Below the pieces are notes generated by a model. That model was not told the DNA's origin, did not search any database, and was given only the letters and a program-made list of their open reading frames with translations. 64,000 nucleotides of DNA, from assembly GCA_021776795.1 (NCBI GenBank), contig JAJFFC010000005.1, forward strand, positions 173,501 through 237,500, written 5' to 3'. This document shows positions 1,717 through 11,588 of this stretch, piece after piece; position 1 is the stretch's first letter; each line of letters opens with the position of its first letter. The position numbers and the translations under genes were made by a program. This DNA is from Planctomycetota bacterium (GTDB taxonomy: Bacteria; Planctomycetota; UBA1135).

Positions 1717-1974
1717 ATGGTGCTGAACTACCTAATTCGCTGCCGCCCCCTGTACCAAGAGATTGACGCCTTTTTGGACGGCAAGATGAATCCCTGGGCT
1801 CGATTCACCACCCACATGCATCTTGCTATGTGCCGCCGTTGCCGGATTTACCTCCGGCAATACCGGCGGGTGCGCGAGATTTCACTAGAGGTTTCCCCCT
1901 CGCAACTCCCAGAAAACTTCGACCGGGTCATGACGCAGGTTTTTAGCCGCTGGAAGGAACTAGAGTCTTCCTAG
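1717..1974 (+). CDS. Putative zinc-finger (anti-sigma-like, zf-HC2-type) small protein
   Basis: HxxxCxxC motif (HLAMCRRC) in 85 aa; no adjacent sigma factor. Confidence 0.5.
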   Translation: MVLNYLIRCRPLYQEIDAFLDGKMNPWARFTTHMHLAMCRRCRIYLRQYRRVREISLEVSPSQLPENFDRVMTQVFSRWKELESS

Positions 1975-2606
1975 ACAGATGGATCTTCCTCAATCAAGAT
2001 TGCACGAACTGGCGAGGCGTCAAAATCTGCCAATTTAAGCGGCAAAGCCGAAAGGGTGTACAACCCGGGATCGACATCTTTCAGGACTAAGCCTTCTAGG
2101 TTGGCCATATCACGATCGGCTAGGGCATTGTGCGCTTCTAACTCTTGGTCTTGGAACAAATCCACCGAAGGTGTGTCCAAGCCAATGGTGTGCACACCGC
2201 ATTCGTCGTGGAGATAGGCCACAAGTTCGGCAGAGAGCGCATTGAAATCTAGATTCCATTGCCGAGGGTCTGGAAAGCTTCCGGTAGCAAAAAGAATGCG
2301 TGGCGCGCGCGGAGCATGTGCCAAATGCTCCGGACGAATCCGTTCACCTAGCGCAAGCTCGACCCGAAAGACTTCGCAGGGACCGTAGTAATAATGCAGC
2401 GGGCGCTCCCCGATCCCCGGCGTGCCAGGGCGATAGTGCTTCGGGGCGTCGGCATGCGCGCCCAAATGCACCGTGGTGTGTAAATGGGAAAGGGTGTAGT
2501 TTGCACCCTCTTCCATGTCGCAAACGACTTTGCGCTGAAGCGGAGTGTCTCCTGGCCAAACCCCAAGGCCTTCATCGAGAACGGGACTGATGTCAATCAG
2601 TTTCAT
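1971..2606 (-). CDS. kynB: Cyclase-family kynurenine formamidase-like protein
   Basis: MKLIDISPVLDEGLGVWPGDTP... and metal motif HLGAHADAPKHY typical of KynB/cyclase family; operon with TDO. Confidence 0.8.
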   Translation of the reverse strand: MKLIDISPVLDEGLGVWPGDTPLQRKVVCDMEEGANYTLSHLHTTVHLGAHADAPKHYRPGTPGIGERPLHYYYGPCEVFRVELALGERIRPEHLAHAPRAPRILFATGSFPDPRQWNLDFNALSAELVAYLHDECGVHTIGLDTPSVDLFQDQELEAHNALADRDMANLEGLVLKDVDPGLYTLSALPLKLADFDASPVRAILIEEDPSV

Positions 2607-2608
2607 GC

Positions 2609-3040
2609 CTAATCGCTGGCTTGTGGAAGATGGGCCACAACTTTGAATTCCACCGCAATCGGCGTGGGCAGGGCGCGAATGGCTAGCGTAGTGCGAGCGG
2701 CCTGAACATCGGTGAAATGCTTCGCGTAGATCTCGTTGTAGCCCGCGAAGTCACGATCCATATCTACCAAAAATGCAGTGACATCTACGACGTTGTCTAA
2801 AGTGGCACCGCAGGCGGCAAGAACGGCCTCGACATTGGCGATCACCGCCTCGGTTTGCAAGCGGATGTCATAGTCCAAAGGTTGGCCCTCGGCATTGCGA
2901 ATGGGTCCCCCTGGAATCTCATTCGTTCCCGCTTGACGCGGACCGACACCACTCAAGAAAAAGAGGTCTCCAACGCGCCGGGCGTGAGGGTAGGCGCCAA
3001 CCGGAGCTGGAGCCTGATCGGTACGGATGGGATTGCTCAT
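2609..3040 (-). CDS. amnD: RidA-family protein, probable 2-aminomuconate deaminase
   Basis: RidA/YjgF signature (GDLFFLSGVGPR...QTEAVIANVEAVLAACGATLDNVVDVTAFLVDM...RTTLAIRALP); ATGA overlap with upstream dioxygenase subunit. Confidence 0.75.
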   Translation of the reverse strand: MSNPIRTDQAPAPVGAYPHARRVGDLFFLSGVGPRQAGTNEIPGGPIRNAEGQPLDYDIRLQTEAVIANVEAVLAACGATLDNVVDVTAFLVDMDRDFAGYNEIYAKHFTDVQAARTTLAIRALPTPIAVEFKVVAHLPQASD

Positions 3041-3978
3041 GAGGATTTCGCAGCGGGTTCCGAGGCATCGGTGGCGAGCACATTGCGATCGCCACGGAAG
3101 ACTTCAGTGTCGTCTTCATCGTACTCCAGGTCGCCGCCGGCGCCTGCCTGCGGCGTCAGGCCAACCAAAGCTGCGCCGGTACCCCAGATTGGTTCATAGG
3201 CATAGACCTTGCCGCGGTAGTCATTGCTTTGTCCGCTGAGGGAGGCCAACCACCAAATCGCTTTCAGCTTGGAGTCGCCATTGGCCTGGCGACTAAATTC
3301 GCGTGCAAGCTGAGAAACATCTTCGAGCCGGCCTTGCTCAAGAAGTTCCAGAAGCTTGCGATTCCACTCATCATCTTTGGCGGAATGAATGCTGTCCTGA
3401 GCAGGATTAATCCACTCCGTAAACATGCGGTTAGACAAGGCAGTCACGGAAATCGCGACCACGCGCTTTCCTGAGGCTGCGACCGCATCCGCGGCGGCCT
3501 TGCCAAGGACCAGTGTTTCCGCGCGATCGCTGTAAATATTACAGCTCACGATTCCGGCAGAAATGGCGCCATCTGGATTGAGCAGATTCAGTGCCGTAAT
3601 GCTACCGACATCAATCGGAAAGCCTTCATAGGCCACGGTACGCGCAGTTAAACCGCGCGCCTGTGCCGCATCGCGATAGTGCTCGGCAAAGTCCGCATCG
3701 ATGTTGAGGTCATAGTGCAGGGTGCCCAGCTCATGGAAATCTTCGTCGACCACCCAAAACTTGGGTTTAGGGTCGGCCTGCATTTGATGGCCAATGATAC
3801 TGACCCAACGGGTACTGAAAATCAGCAGCAAGTCGGGCTTCAGCGCGCGGATATCCGCGGCCATCTCGCCGTAAGCGTCGTGAAGTCGTTGCCATGCAGG
3901 CGAACGATCCGGCGCCAACAATGCATGCGGCCGCGAAGGCACGACAAAGCTGCCGACGATTTTACCTTTTGCGCTCAT
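3037..3978 (-). CDS. amnA: LigB-superfamily protein, 2-aminophenol 1,6-dioxygenase alpha (non-catalytic)-like subunit
   Basis: Resembles alpha subunits of aminophenol dioxygenases (LLLIFSTRWVSIIGHQ..., GFPIDVGSITA); Fe-ligand His positions of LigB not retained; ATGA overlaps at both ends; start moved to internal Met. Confidence 0.75.
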   Translation of the reverse strand: MSAKGKIVGSFVVPSRPHALLAPDRSPAWQRLHDAYGEMAADIRALKPDLLLIFSTRWVSIIGHQMQADPKPKFWVVDEDFHELGTLHYDLNIDADFAEHYRDAAQARGLTARTVAYEGFPIDVGSITALNLLNPDGAISAGIVSCNIYSDRAETLVLGKAAADAVAASGKRVVAISVTALSNRMFTEWINPAQDSIHSAKDDEWNRKLLELLEQGRLEDVSQLAREFSRQANGDSKLKAIWWLASLSGQSNDYRGKVYAYEPIWGTGAALVGLTPQAGAGGDLEYDEDDTEVFRGDRNVLATDASEPAAKSS

Positions 3979-4928
3979 GCCTGATCTCCGGCCTGTACAT
4001 GAGCTTTGCGCATGTCCCATTCCACCACCGCGTTGCCGGTGCCAATCACCGTGCCGTAACCGTGAACCGTGGCAGGGAAGTCCGGGACATCTAAAGCACC
4101 GAGCAACCAGGTCAGGCTACCGTCTTTACATTCACTCACCGCTTGCTCAATAAAATCTGGCATCTGCTCCAGCAGCTGGGCACACTGCCCCTCTTGCATC
4201 AATCTCATGACATGCCGATCCCAGGCTTCTTGGTTGCCATTGTGGATGTGCTCGAAGGCGGGATCTTCGGGATCTTCTGGCTCTTCGGTAAAGTGGCGGT
4301 GGCTTAAGGAACAACTGGCCAACAGCAGAGCCCGACGTCCACTCTGCTCTACAGCGCGACGCGTGGCACGGCCAAGCGCAAGCATTTCGCGCTCTCCGAC
4401 TTCATTGGAATAATCAAAATAGGAACGCGCTGAGCTAATCGCCACGATGGGCACATCTAATTCTGGACGAACTAGATAGCTCGAAGTGATGGTGCCGTAA
4501 TCCACGCGGAACTCCGGGTTGCGCATCATGCTGGTGACCAAACCTTCCTGCGCGGCCTCCTCCTGGATCGCTTCGGCCAGGGGCACGTCGACCTGAAGAT
4601 CGAAATGGAAGCGAAATAGGTTTGGGAAAATGGGGTCTACCGATAGCCCCTCAAAGTTGGGCACGCCCAAAAAGTGATGGCCTACTCGAGTTTTCCAGTG
4701 CGGTGTATGCACCACAATGACATCAAACTCGCGGTCCTCTAGGCTTTTGCGCAGGCTCTGGTAGCCATCGAGCAAAGACTTCCATGCACCAGCACCACTG
4801 GACTTGGGTTCGTTTTGTTGAGGATTGGAAGCGTAGACCAGGTGTGGTGGATGTGGCGAAAGGCAACCTGCCACAATTTCGCCGCTGCCTGGAGGACGAT
4901 GGGGAGGAGAGGAAGTGGATGAACTCAT
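3975..4928 (-). CDS. amnB: LigB-superfamily extradiol dioxygenase, 2-aminophenol 1,6-dioxygenase beta (catalytic)-like subunit
   Basis: GEIVAGCLSPHPPHLVYASNPQQNEP, VVHTPHWKTRVGHHFLGVPNFEGLSVDPIFPNLFRF, HGYGTVIGTGNAVVEW closely match aminophenol 1,6-dioxygenase beta subunits; catalytic His motifs present. Confidence 0.85.
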   Translation of the reverse strand: MSSSTSSPPHRPPGSGEIVAGCLSPHPPHLVYASNPQQNEPKSSGAGAWKSLLDGYQSLRKSLEDREFDVIVVHTPHWKTRVGHHFLGVPNFEGLSVDPIFPNLFRFHFDLQVDVPLAEAIQEEAAQEGLVTSMMRNPEFRVDYGTITSSYLVRPELDVPIVAISSARSYFDYSNEVGEREMLALGRATRRAVEQSGRRALLLASCSLSHRHFTEEPEDPEDPAFEHIHNGNQEAWDRHVMRLMQEGQCAQLLEQMPDFIEQAVSECKDGSLTWLLGALDVPDFPATVHGYGTVIGTGNAVVEWDMRKAHVQAGDQA

Positions 4929-4941
4929 CGGTAAGGGCTGC

Positions 4942-6342
4942 TCAAAGTTGTATGCAGATATTGCGGTCTTGCGAGTAGAACTCAAGCGCATAGCGCCCGC
5001 CTTCTCGCCCCAAACCGCTTTGCTTCATGCCGCCAAAGGGCACGCGGTAGTCTCGTTTATTCCAGGTATTAATCCAGACCATTCCTGATTCGAGCGCAGC
5101 CGCAAGGCGATGGGCGCGAGTCAAATTTTGAGTCCAAACCGATGCCCCTAATCCATAGGGCACATGATTGGCCATGGCCAGTGCTTCGTCCTCATGGTCA
5201 AAGGGGTGCACAGTCACGACGGGACCGAAGATTTCTTCGGTGGCGGTGCGGCAAGAAATCGGCAAGTCGGTAATCACGGTTGGGGCGAAGTAAGCCCCTG
5301 CAGGAGGACCAACCGGCCCTCCACCGCACAGAATGGTGCCGCCTTCCTCCTTGGCTAAAGCCATATAGGAAGTCACTTTGTCGCGATGATCAGCGGAAAC
5401 CAAAGAACCCATGGTTTCGCCAGGAGTCCAGTCGCCAGCTTCAGCCTCTTGCACTAAGCGATCAACCACTTCGTCATAGCAAGAACGTTCGACCAGAAGT
5501 CGCGAGCCGCAAAGGCAAATCTGCCCGGTATTCAGGAAGGCGGCACGGGCTACCCCCGGAACGGCGACATCTAAATCCGCATCGGCAAACAAGAGGCTTG
5601 GGTTCTTGCCACCGAGTTCGAGGCTGACCTTCTTAAGCAAAGGCGAAGCCTGGCCCGCAATGTGCTTTCCAGTGGCGGTACTTCCGGTGAAGCTAATCGC
5701 CTTGACGCGGGGATCGGTGCACAAGGATTCTCCGACGTCTGCACCCAGTCCATGAACCACATTAAGCAGACCTGCTGGAGCTCCCACCTTGGTAAAAGCT
5801 GCGGCCATCATCGTTGCGGTGCTTGGGGTCACTTCACTGGGTTTAGCCACCACGGCGTTCCCCATCGCAATCGCTGGCGCCAATTTCCAGGTGAACAAGT
5901 GCAGCGGGAAGTTCCACGGCGTAATCGTGACCACGGTGCCTAGCGCTTGGCGCAATGTGTAGTTCAAGCCATCTTCCATTTGATGGCAGGCCGTTTCCTC
6001 GCGTTGGACCGCTGCGGCGAAGAAGCGCAAGTTGTCTAGGGAACGAGGGACATCGACCTGCAGGCATGCTTGCAAAGTCTTGCCACTATCCCGCGCTTCT
6101 GCCTCGGCAAACTCTTCAATGCGCCCCTCGACTTCGTCGGCGAGGGCGTGTAACAGTTGCACGCGGTCTGCCACGGCAAGCTTGGGCGCAGCTTCTGCCG
6201 CGGCCAACGCTGCATCGACATCGGCCGCGGTGCCCTGAGCAATGCCACCAATACGCTGACCCGTTTTCGGATCCACGTTATCGAGGTATTGCGCCGAGGC
6301 CGGGGCATATGCCTTGCCGGCAATCCAATGGTCCAAGTTCAT
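4942..6342 (-). CDS. amnC: Aldehyde dehydrogenase, probable 2-aminomuconate semialdehyde dehydrogenase
   Basis: ALDH motifs (VTITPWNFPLHLFTWKLAPAIAMGN, SFTGSTATGKHI, LELGGKNPS, NTGQICLCGSR, MKQSGLGREGG); context with dioxygenase and RidA. Confidence 0.85.
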   Translation of the reverse strand: MNLDHWIAGKAYAPASAQYLDNVDPKTGQRIGGIAQGTAADVDAALAAAEAAPKLAVADRVQLLHALADEVEGRIEEFAEAEARDSGKTLQACLQVDVPRSLDNLRFFAAAVQREETACHQMEDGLNYTLRQALGTVVTITPWNFPLHLFTWKLAPAIAMGNAVVAKPSEVTPSTATMMAAAFTKVGAPAGLLNVVHGLGADVGESLCTDPRVKAISFTGSTATGKHIAGQASPLLKKVSLELGGKNPSLLFADADLDVAVPGVARAAFLNTGQICLCGSRLLVERSCYDEVVDRLVQEAEAGDWTPGETMGSLVSADHRDKVTSYMALAKEEGGTILCGGGPVGPPAGAYFAPTVITDLPISCRTATEEIFGPVVTVHPFDHEDEALAMANHVPYGLGASVWTQNLTRAHRLAAALESGMVWINTWNKRDYRVPFGGMKQSGLGREGGRYALEFYSQDRNICIQL

Positions 6343-6351
6343 GTCAGCAGT

Positions 6352-7458
6352 TTAGAGGTAAGGCGTGATGTCGAAGTCGTAGCGTTCGCGGTCTGGGTCC
6401 CATTCATCCCAGGTAGGCACCTTCTCGAGCTGCTCGAGATAGCGCGGCGGGACCACTCCTGGCACCAAGAATGCCTTTTGCCGATGCATGGCATAAGGAT
6501 TCCTCAGCGAAATCCCCAAAGGTGCCAAAACTGCCCGCGCGATGTACCAGCAGGCCTGCGGATTCCAACCATGAGCAATCTTCACCACTAGGCCTAAGCC
6601 TTGCGGGTAGTCCTCGTGGGAGATCGCCAATCCAAGCAGGCCGTCGGCGCCTTCTTTAGCCAAAATCGTACCCTGGCCGGACTTGAGGATCGTGGAATCG
6701 AGACGGTTGAAGCCACCAATCAGGTCTGGGTGGCGCTGCATCGATTCCCAAATCCAATCTTCGTCTTTGCTGCGCGCGAGACCGGCGTAAAGTTGCGCCA
6801 ATTCTGAAACCGTGTTGCTCAAGGTAGGCAAACCGCAGCCATCGCGCGCCACGCGCAAAGGCTTCCAGTCTTGGCCAAGGAAGCGACGCACCTGCGCTAG
6901 GTAGCCAGCAAAGAAGGGGTGCTGCGGCAACATATAGCCGACTGCTTCCCAGTTCTTGAGCTGGCATCCGCGCAAGATTGCTGCATGCTCTCCACTGCAG
7001 GTGTGAAACCAACGCCGCGGCCGACGCACCTGGCGACCAAACTGCACCAAGGGCACATCGAGCGGGGTTTGCATCAGGCCGTGGTCTTCTACGGCAAGCA
7101 AAGACTGTGCCGCGGCAACATGCGAAGCGTCGCCATTATGCGAAGCGACAGCAATCGCCTTTTGTTTCCAATCCAAATCGCCATCGAGCTCTTTGGTGAA
7201 GACCTTCATCATTAAGGGCTTCATCATGGAGCGGCCATAGCACAGGACGTTGCCGCCGAAACTATGGAAGACCTCGTCGCCGTGAGCCCAAGCGACCGCA
7301 CCGTGAATGGTCGTTTCGGAAACTCCAGCACGACGAAAGTCCACTAAGGGCTCCCATTCGACGTCGCGACCGGTGGGAATGCCTGGTTCCTGTTCACCAA
7401 AGGGCGAGCGCGGATACATGGCATCGCGCGGACGCAGGGGGTTTTCGGATTGGCTCAT
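6352..7458 (-). CDS. Asparaginase-II-like amidohydrolase (Rhizobium etli ReAII-type family)
   Basis: GRSMMKP, VASHNGDASHV, HTCSGEHAAIL, DGCGLPTLSN, KEGADGLLG motifs of the Asparaginase_II family. Confidence 0.75.
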   Translation of the reverse strand: MSQSENPLRPRDAMYPRSPFGEQEPGIPTGRDVEWEPLVDFRRAGVSETTIHGAVAWAHGDEVFHSFGGNVLCYGRSMMKPLMMKVFTKELDGDLDWKQKAIAVASHNGDASHVAAAQSLLAVEDHGLMQTPLDVPLVQFGRQVRRPRRWFHTCSGEHAAILRGCQLKNWEAVGYMLPQHPFFAGYLAQVRRFLGQDWKPLRVARDGCGLPTLSNTVSELAQLYAGLARSKDEDWIWESMQRHPDLIGGFNRLDSTILKSGQGTILAKEGADGLLGLAISHEDYPQGLGLVVKIAHGWNPQACWYIARAVLAPLGISLRNPYAMHRQKAFLVPGVVPPRYLEQLEKVPTWDEWDPDRERYDFDITPYL

Positions 7459-8693
7459 GCGCGCGCTCCATCGAGCAAGGGCACGACTTGTTCCTGGAAG
7501 GCCTTCATATCGCGCATGATGCGCGCCGAATCATGGCGGTAGAAATCGAACCAAAGCATGAGGCAATCGTCTTGGTGGAAGCGCTCCTGCAGTTGTTTGG
7601 CGACTTCTTCTGGGTCACCGACTAGGGCATTCTCGGTAGCACCTTCGACCTTCTTCGGGTCGAGAGTTCCTTCTAGTGCATGCCAGTACTCCGAGAGTGC
7701 GGCTTGCGCCTCTTCCCGTGCAGCAGCCTGACGCTGCTCCTGGCTCAAGCCCTCCTCGGCATTGAGGAAAACCATGACCGTGCGCGGCATATTCGCACGC
7801 CCCCAAGCTCCCCCATCTGGGTGATAAGCCGCAGCTAATCGCTGATGCGTATTCTCAATCACCTCTTCACTGGTAATCGAAAGGTTGAACACCTTGACCG
7901 GAGCAATCTGGTTCAACTCTTCTTGCAATTTCGGGTCGTGCGAACCAAGAATTAAGTCCATCAATTCTCGACGCCAGGCCTGAGGAACCACCTTAATCTC
8001 TTCAAAGTCCCAGCGCTTGGCAATAGTCATCACTTCCGGAGCTTCGGTGCCATGGGTTTGGACCCAGGCTTGGCACACGCGCTCCCAGTCTTCGTCGCTG
8101 CGAAAATTGGCGCGCGATAGCGTGGTTTCGGGTGTGTCCTCGCTCGACAACACCTCGCCGTTGAGCAGGCGTAGGAATATGTGACAAGCTTCGCGGAAAA
8201 GTTGACCTTTATACGCAGGCCAGGCTGCAGCTTCGACGGCATCGCGCGCGTCAATGCCATAAGCGCGGTTCATGAAGTCAAAACGGCCTGCAGAGAAACC
8301 AATGCGCAACCGCCGCGTTTCTTCTGCGTGCAATCCATGCCATGAGGCAAAGGCCGCGGTTCGCTCAGCAGCGGCAATGGGTCCGCCGTTGCACAAGATG
8401 TTCATCACCGCGGAGCCAACTTCAATCTGCTTGGTCCGAGCAAAAACCTGCTGAGCCAACTGAAAGATGTCATTGTTGAGGCCGATTTCACCCTGGAAAT
8501 GCTGCACCACCGGGCGGCGATTGCGCTTCTGCACTTCGGTGGACAGATGCGATTCCGCAACCCAAGCGCAGCCGTAACCGAGAGTATCGGCAGCCTCGAC
8601 CTGCTCTAGGAACTGCCGCAGCATGGTGGCTTCGTCTGGGCAGTAGCCAGCCACAGGGGTTTGGCAGATGGAGAAGAAGACGTCGAAGTCCAT
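7455..8693 (-). CDS. LLM-class (luciferase-like) flavin-dependent monooxygenase
   Basis: Luciferase-like N-terminus (FLEQVEAADTLGYGCAWVAESHLS), GSAVMNILCNGGPIAAAERTAAF, LRIGFSAGRFDF; ATGA overlap with the asparaginase-like gene. Confidence 0.85.
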   Translation of the reverse strand: MDFDVFFSICQTPVAGYCPDEATMLRQFLEQVEAADTLGYGCAWVAESHLSTEVQKRNRRPVVQHFQGEIGLNNDIFQLAQQVFARTKQIEVGSAVMNILCNGGPIAAAERTAAFASWHGLHAEETRRLRIGFSAGRFDFMNRAYGIDARDAVEAAAWPAYKGQLFREACHIFLRLLNGEVLSSEDTPETTLSRANFRSDEDWERVCQAWVQTHGTEAPEVMTIAKRWDFEEIKVVPQAWRRELMDLILGSHDPKLQEELNQIAPVKVFNLSITSEEVIENTHQRLAAAYHPDGGAWGRANMPRTVMVFLNAEEGLSQEQRQAAAREEAQAALSEYWHALEGTLDPKKVEGATENALVGDPEEVAKQLQERFHQDDCLMLWFDFYRHDSARIMRDMKAFQEQVVPLLDGARA

Positions 8694-8709: not shown

Positions 8710-9951
8710 TCAGTGCCGCGGCACCCGCTTCACGCTCCAGGTCGACCAAGCCGCAAGTAACCACAACAAGCTCGTTGGCAAAAAGCTCCACAACCCGGCA
8801 CCGACGGCGAGCCCGGTTGGGAATAAGGCGAAGGGGAGATACCAAAATAGAGTGGCCAATCCGGATAAACGCAGAATCAGGAAAAAGAAAATGCCAATGG
8901 GAGTGGCGGCGCCCAGAAAAAGAGAGGCGATCACAAACCCAGGGGCGGCGGCACTTGCAAGCCAAGCCCGCCAGTCCAGGTCCAGACCAACTCCCAGCAA
9001 GGGAATGGTGGCCAGACTTCCCGCCAGGGCAAAGATTCCCCAAAAACACCGCCGATGATCTGCGGTCATGGCCATGCGCCCATCCTTTTGCGCAAAGAGA
9101 AGGAGTTCCGACAGAAGCCAGGCAAACACGATCAGTGCACCGAGCAACAGGAGCGCCGAGAGCGCCCAAGTCAGGACCACAGGCTTGATCATCATCGTGA
9201 TCGCTAGCGCAAAAACCACCATGACTCCGGTCAAGGGGTCGCGAAAGAATCTCAGCAGACGCGGGCGAATGCGATGAACCCAACCATAAAAGGGGTTGTG
9301 GCTGCGCATGGCTTCTAAGTAGCCTTGCCTGGCTTCCTCACTTTGCGGATCGCGACACAGGGCTTCGCGGAAGTGTTCTTTGGAAGCTTGATTCCCCCCG
9401 TCAGTCAAGGCTACGCGCGCAGCCAAATGGAGAGCTTCTGGATTTTCCGGCCATTGCTCCAGGATTTTTTTGGAAAGTTCCTTTGCATGCTGATGTTCTC
9501 CTCGGTTCGCCAAGAATTCGGCGTAGCGAGACATCGCAGAAAAATCTTCGGGAGCTCGCCGCAGGGCTTCCTTCAGCCACTCTTCCTGGCCGTCAGGATT
9601 CCCCATTTCGCGTTCGTATTCGGCCTGCATGCCAGCCACAAAGGAATCCTCATGGCTTTCCCGGTGCAACAAGTCGATGGAGTTTTTTGCCTCAGCCATA
9701 CGTCCACTAAAAAGGGCGATTTGTGCTCGCGCACAGTGCAATGGAATGGAATCTGCGCTTGTCGCTAGCCCATCATCAATCACTTGCCAAGCATCATCCG
9801 GCCGAAATTGATGGTGCAGACAAAGGCTCAACATGGCAATGGCCTCGGCGTTGTTTGGTTCTTGAGCCAGCGCACTATGCGCGGCCTCCATGGCCAGCGC
9901 CCACTCCCCCTGCTCGAAGCGCAGGCACGCCAATTTCATATGGGCGCTCAT
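8710..9951 (-). CDS. TPR-repeat protein with C-terminal multi-pass membrane region
   Basis: TPR-like helical repeats in N-half (ALAMEAAHSALAQEPNNAEAIAMLSLCL...), several hydrophobic helices in C-half. Confidence 0.7.
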   Translation of the reverse strand: MSAHMKLACLRFEQGEWALAMEAAHSALAQEPNNAEAIAMLSLCLHHQFRPDDAWQVIDDGLATSADSIPLHCARAQIALFSGRMAEAKNSIDLLHRESHEDSFVAGMQAEYEREMGNPDGQEEWLKEALRRAPEDFSAMSRYAEFLANRGEHQHAKELSKKILEQWPENPEALHLAARVALTDGGNQASKEHFREALCRDPQSEEARQGYLEAMRSHNPFYGWVHRIRPRLLRFFRDPLTGVMVVFALAITMMIKPVVLTWALSALLLLGALIVFAWLLSELLLFAQKDGRMAMTADHRRCFWGIFALAGSLATIPLLGVGLDLDWRAWLASAAAPGFVIASLFLGAATPIGIFFFLILRLSGLATLFWYLPFALFPTGLAVGAGLWSFLPTSLLWLLAAWSTWSVKRVPRH

Positions 9952-9960
9952 GCCCTTACC

Positions 9961-10752
9961 TTAAATGCCGTTTAGACGTCCGCCATCTACGGCAATCGAC
10001 TGACCACGCACATAACCACCTGCAGGGGAAGCCAAGAATGCGGCCAAGGCTGCGAGTTCGCGCGGGTCACCAAGGCGCCCCTCGGGCACCGTCGCCAACC
10101 ACGCTTCCTCGACGGCATCGGGAGACTTGTCTTGGCGCGAGGCCACCGTTTCCTTGAGCGAACGCAGACGGTCGGTCGCGGTAAAGCCTGGCAGCAAGTT
10201 ATTGATGGTGATACCCACCGCAAGCTCTTTGCTCAAGGTCTTCGCCCAAGAAGCCACAGCCCCGCGCACCGTATTCGATACGCCGAGTCCGGCGATGGGT
10301 TCTTTTACCGAAGTACTGATGACATTGAGAATGCGACCATAACCAGCGCGCTGCATGCCAGGGACAAAGGTCTTCACCAAAAAATGCGCCGCGAATAGGT
10401 GACGACGCAGGGGGGACAGAAAGTCTTCGTCCTCGGCCTCAAGAATCGGACCTCCGGGAGGCCCACCGCTGTTGTTGACCAAGATGAGTGGCGCACCACC
10501 AAGGTCTTGAACGCGGTTCGCCGTGCGCGTGAGGGCTTCGCGATCTTCCAAATCGACCGAGTAAACATCGGCCTGGGGTGAACCTGCGGCTCGGCATTGG
10601 GTGGCGACATCTTCGAGGGCATCGGTCGAGCGAGCTAGCAAGGAAACACTCGCCCCTTGTGCGGCCATCGCCAGGGCGATTTCGCGCCCAAGCCCGGAAG
10701 ATGCGCCACAAATCAGCGCGTGTCGTTCTTCTAAGGAGGTGGAAAGACTCAT
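9961..10752 (-). CDS. SDR-family oxidoreductase with atypical catalytic motif
   Basis: Rossmann motif ALICGASSGLGREIA, NNSGG, C-terminal GGYVRGQSIAVDGG; YxxxK position reads SNTVR; start set at ATG overlapping kynA stop. Confidence 0.8.
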   Translation of the reverse strand: MSLSTSLEERHALICGASSGLGREIALAMAAQGASVSLLARSTDALEDVATQCRAAGSPQADVYSVDLEDREALTRTANRVQDLGGAPLILVNNSGGPPGGPILEAEDEDFLSPLRRHLFAAHFLVKTFVPGMQRAGYGRILNVISTSVKEPIAGLGVSNTVRGAVASWAKTLSKELAVGITINNLLPGFTATDRLRSLKETVASRQDKSPDAVEEAWLATVPEGRLGDPRELAALAAFLASPAGGYVRGQSIAVDGGRLNGI

Positions 10753-11588
10753 GTTTGCCAATCGGCGTTACGAACTTCCCACAACTCGGGGAAGAAGCGC
10801 AGTTTCAATCGAGATTCGAGGAATTCGCCTCCTTTGGAGCCGCCTGTCCCCTTCTTGCCGCCAATCGTGCGCGTCACCATCAAAATATGTACCGCACGCC
10901 ATTTCGCCCACAAGGTATCCAAGTCTAACAAGGCTTCGCAGCTCAAAAGCCAGTGGTAGTTCTCCTTGGGATCTTGGTAAAGATTGCGGAAGACTTCGAC
11001 GAGGTCGTCGTTGAGCTCATGCCCAGTGGCGACATCGCGCTGGAGCACCTTTTCCGGAACGGCGTAGCCATCCTTGGCCATCGCGCGTAAGAAGATGTCG
11101 TAGACGCTCGGGGATTGGAAACGCTTCTGCAGGCGCTCCAGCTCTTCCGGGCGACCTTCAAAAAACTGGAAGAACCAGGGGTCGCGTAATCCGCAAACAA
11201 ATTCTACCTCACGGAATTGCACGGATTGGAATCCGCTGCCGGTGCCGAGGGCTTCGCGGAAGCCAGCAAACTCCTCCGGGGTCAGCGTACTCAGCAACTG
11301 AATCTGCTGGCACAAGCACTCCATAATGCAGGTGATGCGCTTGAGCACTTTCAGCGTGCGCGAGACATGGCCCGCCGTGAGGTAAGCCATCAGCAAGTCG
11401 ACTTCATGCAGAACCTCTTTGAACCAAAGCTCGAAGCTTTGGTGAATGACGATGAAAAACATCTCATCGTGGTGCGGAGGCCGACTCTGCAGAACTTGCA
11501 GATTGGTCAACTCGGGGACTTTGAGATAGCTGTTGTAGTTCAGCTCCTCTATCCGCAAACGGTCATAATCGGATGCCTTGGGGTCCAT
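10749..11588 (-). CDS. kynA: Tryptophan 2,3-dioxygenase
   Basis: Characteristic MFFIVIHQSFELWFKEVLHEVD, SVQFREVEFVCGLRD, HILMVTRTIGGKKGTGGSKG. Confidence 0.93.
   Translation of the reverse strand: MDPKASDYDRLRIEELNYNSYLKVPELTNLQVLQSRPPHHDEMFFIVIHQSFELWFKEVLHEVDLLMAYLTAGHVSRTLKVLKRITCIMECLCQQIQLLSTLTPEEFAGFREALGTGSGFQSVQFREVEFVCGLRDPWFFQFFEGRPEELERLQKRFQSPSVYDIFLRAMAKDGYAVPEKVLQRDVATGHELNDDLVEVFRNLYQDPKENYHWLLSCEALLDLDTLWAKWRAVHILMVTRTIGGKKGTGGSKGGEFLESRLKLRFFPELWEVRNADWQT

Follow-up and report, generated by a model that had tools for sequence, protein, structure and literature searches.

In the kynurenine pathway, tryptophan is converted by KynA and KynB and the product then passes to KynU, or through the series KMO, KynU and HAO. 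Kynurenine, an aryl ketone, carries the carbon skeleton of aspartate as its second arm, and its Baeyer-Villiger oxidation would leave exactly an aspartyl acyl group. In 2-aminophenyl esters, the acyl group moves to the neighbouring amine. A meta-cleavage pathway for 2-aminophenol, encoded by amn genes, belongs to the ARO microcompartment of Actinobacteria; the paper on it gives the 2-aminophenol precursor as unknown and mentions neither tryptophan nor kynurenine (PMC10470539). For ReAV, a class 3 asparaginase, Lys138 is 97% conserved among orthologs and the K138A mutant keeps only about 1.5% asparaginase activity (PMC11024299).

Here we propose, at a probability of roughly three in four and without an enzyme assay, that a luciferase-like monooxygenase (LLM) serves as the oxygenase in a route from kynurenine that avoids both kynureninase and kynurenine 3-monooxygenase by way of a Baeyer-Villiger step, a hydrolase and AmnBA. 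The gene evidence for this route is strong; the chemistry is a prediction.

Gene content of the operon

The window, that is, the whole stretch of 64,000 nucleotides that was analysed, carries an operon that lies entirely on the minus strand and reads, 5' to 3', tryptophan 2,3-dioxygenase (TDO), an SDR, a TPR-membrane protein, the LLM, an asparaginase-II-family hydrolase, 2-aminomuconate-6-semialdehyde dehydrogenase (AMSDH), AmnB, AmnA, a Rid protein and an arylformamidase. The TDO (KynA; 10749..11588), which would convert tryptophan to N-formylkynurenine, matched PF03301 at 1.9e-55 and TIGR03036 with 275 bits. The KynB-type arylformamidase (1971..2606), for conversion of N-formylkynurenine to kynurenine, matched PF04199 and, at 1.6e-52, TIGR03035, where its 178.5 bits remain below the cut-off of 223.

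The other recognisable function is cleavage of 2-aminophenol. The AmnC-like AMSDH (4942..6342) had 4npi as its best PDB match (1e-130), and its seven best matches were all AMSDH. The AmnB-like beta subunit of 2-aminophenol 1,6-dioxygenase (3975..4991), the catalytic LigB-family subunit, gave a profile match to 3vsg_B at 1.6e-130 and retained His47, His98 and Glu287 in a residue census. The AmnA-like alpha subunit (3037..4020), also of the LigB family, matched 7txy_A at 1.9e-66, and in the alignment its second metal histidine is replaced (STRW for TPHW). A beta subunit with His-His-Glu ligands paired with a ligand-less alpha subunit is what identifies a 2-aminophenol 1,6-dioxygenase, and, judged from sequence only, the pair conforms. 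The Rid-family protein (2609..3040; PF01042, 2e-23; TIGR00004, 95 bits, under its cut-off) is a predicted 2-aminomuconate deaminase (AmnD). At three other loci, AmnA and the Rid deaminase are fused in one protein (L048:2958-4373, L052:4407-5828 and L012:16126-17429).

The original prediction had implied neighbours of this kind, and the TDO, the KynB-type protein (albeit under its cut-off) and the relatives of AmnB, AmnA and AmnC provide them. From these identities, the operon is predicted to make kynurenine at one end and to degrade 2-aminophenol at the other. With the TPR protein set aside, three genes separate the two functions, those for the LLM, the hydrolase and the SDR. The TPR-repeat membrane protein (8710..9951), recognised by a Pfam match, had no match in other loci; this is the one genome in which its gene separates the SDR from the LLM, the two being adjacent in relatives, and it is probably an insertion.

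The SDR-family gene (9961..10761; PF13561) is the most constant neighbour of the LLM, adjoining it in 25 of the 31 loci outside the window. Its product does not qualify as a classical SDR, which is defined by the catalytic motif YxxxK, since the Tyr and Lys are replaced in the alignment by Ser162-Asn163-x-x-Arg166; SNxxR was invariant in a census of 21 sequences, and it may be a non-dehydrogenase SDR. The same SNxxR occurs in its best PDB match, 5va8. We identified no dedicated flavin reductase gene in the operon. The SDR is a candidate only, and a role for it in reducing flavin for the LLM is a guess.

The luciferase-like monooxygenase and the asparaginase-family hydrolase

The LLM gene (7455..8693) coincides exactly with an open reading frame of 412 amino acids with an ATG start. 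The original prediction, which gave no strand, placed a luciferase-like (group C) protein at this position, and the minus-strand reading frame confirms it. The protein matched PF00296 (Bac_luciferase) with 49.6 bits against a cut-off of 27.9 in a Pfam profile search, and its AlphaFold2 model had a mean pLDDT of 89.7. A Foldseek comparison of the model with the PDB returned 87 chains at E<=1e-3, and the best 50 of the 87 were all members of the LLM superfamily. Together, PF00296 and the luciferase-type TIM barrel satisfy the criterion for this superfamily. PF00296 was the only Pfam match; the PF01494 FAD-binding domain by which a group A FAD kynurenine 3-monooxygenase would be recognised is not present.

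Placement within the superfamily was less specific. Foldseek likeness was even across luciferase, SsuD, RutA, F420 enzymes and a type II Baeyer-Villiger monooxygenase, at 12-16% identity. Searched against the PDB as a single sequence, the LLM found no relative, and its profile found one weak match, an Enhygromyxa luciferase (E 4e-4); neither search matched the diketocamphane monooxygenases. The diketocamphane enzyme 4uwm came 28th among the Foldseek matches listed, at 13% identity, and membership in the type II group by closeness to these enzymes is not met. Another candidate for comparison was the close structural match RslO1 (7bip), which we discarded as support for Baeyer-Villiger chemistry because it is a rishirilide-pathway LLM distinct from RslO9, the Baeyer-Villiger enzyme of that cluster. 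The original prediction would have been refuted had the LLM fallen clearly into an LLM clade of another function, and no such placement was seen in the PDB sequence and profile searches or by Foldseek, although no tree was built. In both sequence and structure the LLM lies outside the known type II clade, yet most likely works like a member of it, the reaction being inferred from pathway context only. The LLM fold also spans hydroxylation, desulfonation and F420 chemistry, and 4uwm is no closer than luciferase, which counts against the route.

As had been noted originally, the stop codon of the LLM and the ATG that opens the PF06089 asparaginase-II gene overlap in the letters ATGA, at 7458-7455. 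The latter gene (6352..7458) encodes an asparaginase-family hydrolase of class 3, the ReAIV/ReAV type, whose predicted products are L-aspartate and 2-aminophenol; the protein matched PF06089 with 158 bits and PDB 8cly at 6.8e-23. In a residue census, Ser77, Lys80, Ser106 and Lys268 were invariant in 16 sequences; both Ser-Lys pairs of ReAV are thus kept, and PF06089 with two Ser-Lys tandems satisfies that part of the definition of a class 3 L-asparaginase. The other part, a Cys-Lys-Cys zinc site, is not met. The two zinc-site cysteines (Cys154 and Cys208) are kept in 15 of the 16 sequences, and the position of the ReAV zinc ligand Lys138 is occupied by Glu157 in 15 of the 16 and by Gln in one. 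A hydrolase variant at another locus (L015:10206-11381) has both cysteines and the Glu changed, to Ser, Asp and Gln, and is probably metal-free in this one lineage.

Compared with the Rhizobium etli enzymes ReAIV and ReAV (PMC8602277, PMC11024299), the hydrolase has the same fold, both Ser-Lys pairs, the two cysteines and Asp206, but is only about 21-27% identical and carries Glu157 instead of Lys138. Given the low activity of ReAV K138A, ordinary asparaginase activity may not be its main role. The hydrolases bound to this operon form a subfamily of at least 65% identity, with other asparaginases at no more than 33%.

In the proposed route, TDO and KynB would first convert tryptophan to L-kynurenine. 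With reduced flavin and O2, the LLM would then carry out a Baeyer-Villiger oxidation of the kynurenine aryl ketone, placing an oxygen between ring and carbonyl. Migration of the electron-rich 2-aminophenyl group would yield the 2-aminophenyl beta-ester of L-aspartate, and a probably spontaneous O-to-N acyl shift would give N4-(2-hydroxyphenyl)-L-asparagine, a substituted asparagine. Both the ester and the amide are beta-aspartyl derivatives, which would explain why an asparaginase fold was recruited, and the class 3 hydrolase would split one or the other to L-aspartate and 2-aminophenol. AmnBA would open the ring, AmnC oxidise the semialdehyde, Rid deaminate 2-aminomuconate, and the lower meta-cleavage pathway finish the degradation. 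The assignment of the first and last of these steps rests on close sequence matches and is to that extent predicted; the Baeyer-Villiger step, the acyl shift, the hydrolysis, the order of deformylation and flavin supply by the SDR are inferred. A Baeyer-Villiger enzyme with an aspartyl hydrolase fits the operon, since a step from kynurenine to 2-aminophenol is needed and the pair would supply it without a missing gene. We also considered, and rejected, the possibility that the asparaginase-like enzyme cuts a C-C bond of kynurenine directly, as the product would be aniline, which is not an AmnB substrate.

Distribution, gene order and alternative readings

A genome scan added 19 loci encoding relatives of the LLM at 56-74% identity, from Planctomycetota, from Myxococcota and from other (delta)proteobacterial MAGs. 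Most of them share the window's gene order; genes in their GC-rich contigs were called by codon-usage scoring. In close relatives the order is fixed as TDO-SDR-LLM-hydrolase-ALDH-AmnB-AmnA-Rid-KynB. Of the 31 loci outside the window, many of them cut by contig ends, 21 have the dehydrogenase and 18 the hydrolase. Two loci under a Klebsiella pneumoniae MAG title (L018 and L020) resemble the (delta)proteobacterial MAG loci, and the label is probably wrong. At one locus (L014), SDR-LLM-ALDH lies beside lower meta-cleavage genes (FAA-hydrolase-family, DmpG-like and acetaldehyde dehydrogenase).

Several myxobacterial genomes carry the module in two parts, SDR-LLM-ALDH and Rid-KynB-hydrolase-AmnB-AmnA (L069-L072). 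KynB there is a neighbour of the hydrolase and AmnBA, not of TDO, and, like the sub-threshold score of the window's KynB-type protein (178 vs 223), this would suit an alternative with N-formylkynurenine as the LLM substrate. The hydrolase would then free N-formyl-2-aminophenol, or the amide form of it, and deformylation by KynB would come last. We consider this order unlikely, since the function of the KynB family is deformylation of N-formylkynurenine and a formyl group would reduce the migratory aptitude of the ring.

Co-occurrence supports the proposed route. An LLM ortholog is present in 18 of 395 Planctomycetota genomes, spread over seven families. The hydrolase was found in 15 of the 395, all 15 of them LLM-positive (Fisher 1.6e-24, illustrative because kinship was ignored), and AmnB in 11 of 297, again all LLM-positive. 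All 18 LLM genomes had a TDO match, some weak. Among TDO-positive Planctomycetota, kynureninase occurred in 0/18 genomes with the LLM versus 115/135 without it (p 3e-13, with the same disregard of kinship and likewise illustrative). Within one family (f23) the two are mutually exclusive: G136, G151 and G180 have the LLM without KynU, and G018, G120, G166 and G193 have KynU without the LLM. Similarly, in 11 Myxococcota and Deltaproteobacteria genomes, reached via their LLM loci, KynU was found in none, the hydrolase in all, and AmnB and TDO in 10 each. The original prediction would have failed had no association with kynA/amnBA been conserved in other genomes; the association extends across two phyla, with the LLM module in the place of kynureninase. 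Neither refuting condition was fulfilled, and its reading of the LLM as a kynurenine Baeyer-Villiger monooxygenase holds up well, though only as a prediction. That the module replaces kynureninase, and that LLM and hydrolase work together, rests on this co-occurrence. As most of the genomes are MAGs with a completeness of only about 85-90%, the absence of a gene from any one of them is weak evidence.

Kynureninase was not found in the window's host genome at the thresholds used. No PF01494 protein was found in that genome, searched at 1e-8, or in two others, the three being from one family (G000, G280 and G198); at the level of sequence search, and within 87-90% completeness, a recognisable KMO is excluded there. 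PF01494 proteins are present in the two myxobacterial genomes tested. For 3-HAO there was no match in the genomes tested, a weak absence, as no positive-control genome gave a match.

The lack of KMO-type enzymes from these three genomes, and the place of the LLM at the KMO position in the classical order, would agree with a non-homologous kynurenine 3-hydroxylase, in which case the hydrolase would stand in for kynureninase and AmnBA would serve as a 3-hydroxyanthranilate dioxygenase. The original prediction had already disfavoured this, and the results weaken it further, to the point where we regard it as highly improbable and reject it. Kynureninase chemistry needs PLP, which the class 3 asparaginase fold lacks, and no kynureninase that could act on 3-hydroxykynurenine was found in any of the 18 and 11 LLM genomes. 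Furthermore, the ring-cleavage family is wrong, the dioxygenase matching the 2-aminophenol type at 1e-130, and the operon is without the aminocarboxymuconate semialdehyde decarboxylase that 3-hydroxyanthranilate would require. Another possibility is that the LLM oxidatively decarboxylates anthranilate to 2-aminophenol, with the asparaginase-like protein no more than a source of aspartate or nitrogen. Such 2-aminophenol would likewise feed the AmnBA present here, but the kynurenine that TDO and KynB produce cannot reach anthranilate when kynureninase is missing, and neither the link of hydrolase and AmnB with the LLM (15/15 and 11/11) nor the hydrolase-KynB-AmnBA operons would be explained; we find this scarcely credible.

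Some LLM genes stand apart from the module. Three genomes of one planctomycete genus (G142, G172 and G321; L044, L047 and L049) have an LLM at 61% identity without hydrolase, AmnB or kynureninase, and a Streptomyces clavuligerus megaplasmid has a 49% homolog (L001:12001-13245) near an eCIS-core-domain gene, with no pathway genes found nearby on the plasmid. Two homologs at 44%, left out of the 18, occur in kynureninase-bearing genomes (G103, L053; G342, L051) and may represent a sister subfamily that acts on a different substrate. The one at L051 is followed directly by a PF01494 FAD monooxygenase. These lone and divergent genes, with the absence of an identified flavin reductase, count against the proposed route. 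The genus of three and Streptomyces also lend something to the idea that the LLM acts elsewhere, for example downstream on the ring-cleavage product, while an unrecognised enzyme splits kynurenine. We give this very little credence: all downstream steps have genes, and only the conversion of kynurenine to 2-aminophenol lacks one and needs an oxygen atom.

Comparison with described systems

We found no description of a kynurenine Baeyer-Villiger enzyme, or of a route from kynurenine to 2-aminophenol, in the open-access papers searched; subscription journals and preprints were outside the scope. If the proposal is true, it would add a branch to tryptophan catabolism and give a function to LLM and asparaginase subfamilies otherwise annotated only as 'monooxygenase' and 'asparaginase'.

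The LLM resembles the type II Baeyer-Villiger monooxygenases (2,5- and 3,6-diketocamphane monooxygenases, 4uwm; PMC4631483) in fold and, as predicted from pathway context, in working as a separate reduced-flavin oxygenase with ketone-to-ester chemistry. It differs in being only 13-14% identical to them, no closer than to luciferase or SsuD, and its predicted substrate is an open-chain aryl ketone amino acid rather than a bicyclic diketone.

The 2-aminophenol meta-cleavage pathway, with its amn genes and the ARO microcompartment, is matched by relatives of AmnB, AmnA, AmnC and AmnD in one operon. In contrast to that pathway, the amn genes of the window are joined to TDO, KynB, the LLM and the hydrolase, and thus tryptophan is the predicted source of 2-aminophenol. 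This would provide a natural amino-acid origin for a compound whose precursor in the ARO pathway was reported as unknown (PMC10470539).

Finally, the operon shares with the kynurenine pathway the first two steps, TDO and arylformamidase, and departs from it thereafter, as kynureninase, a PF01494 hydroxylase and 3-HAO were not found in the genomes tested (the last without a positive control). In the proposed route aspartate, not alanine, would be released, and an asparaginase fold would have been recruited to aromatic catabolism because Baeyer-Villiger oxidation makes kynurenine an aspartyl derivative.
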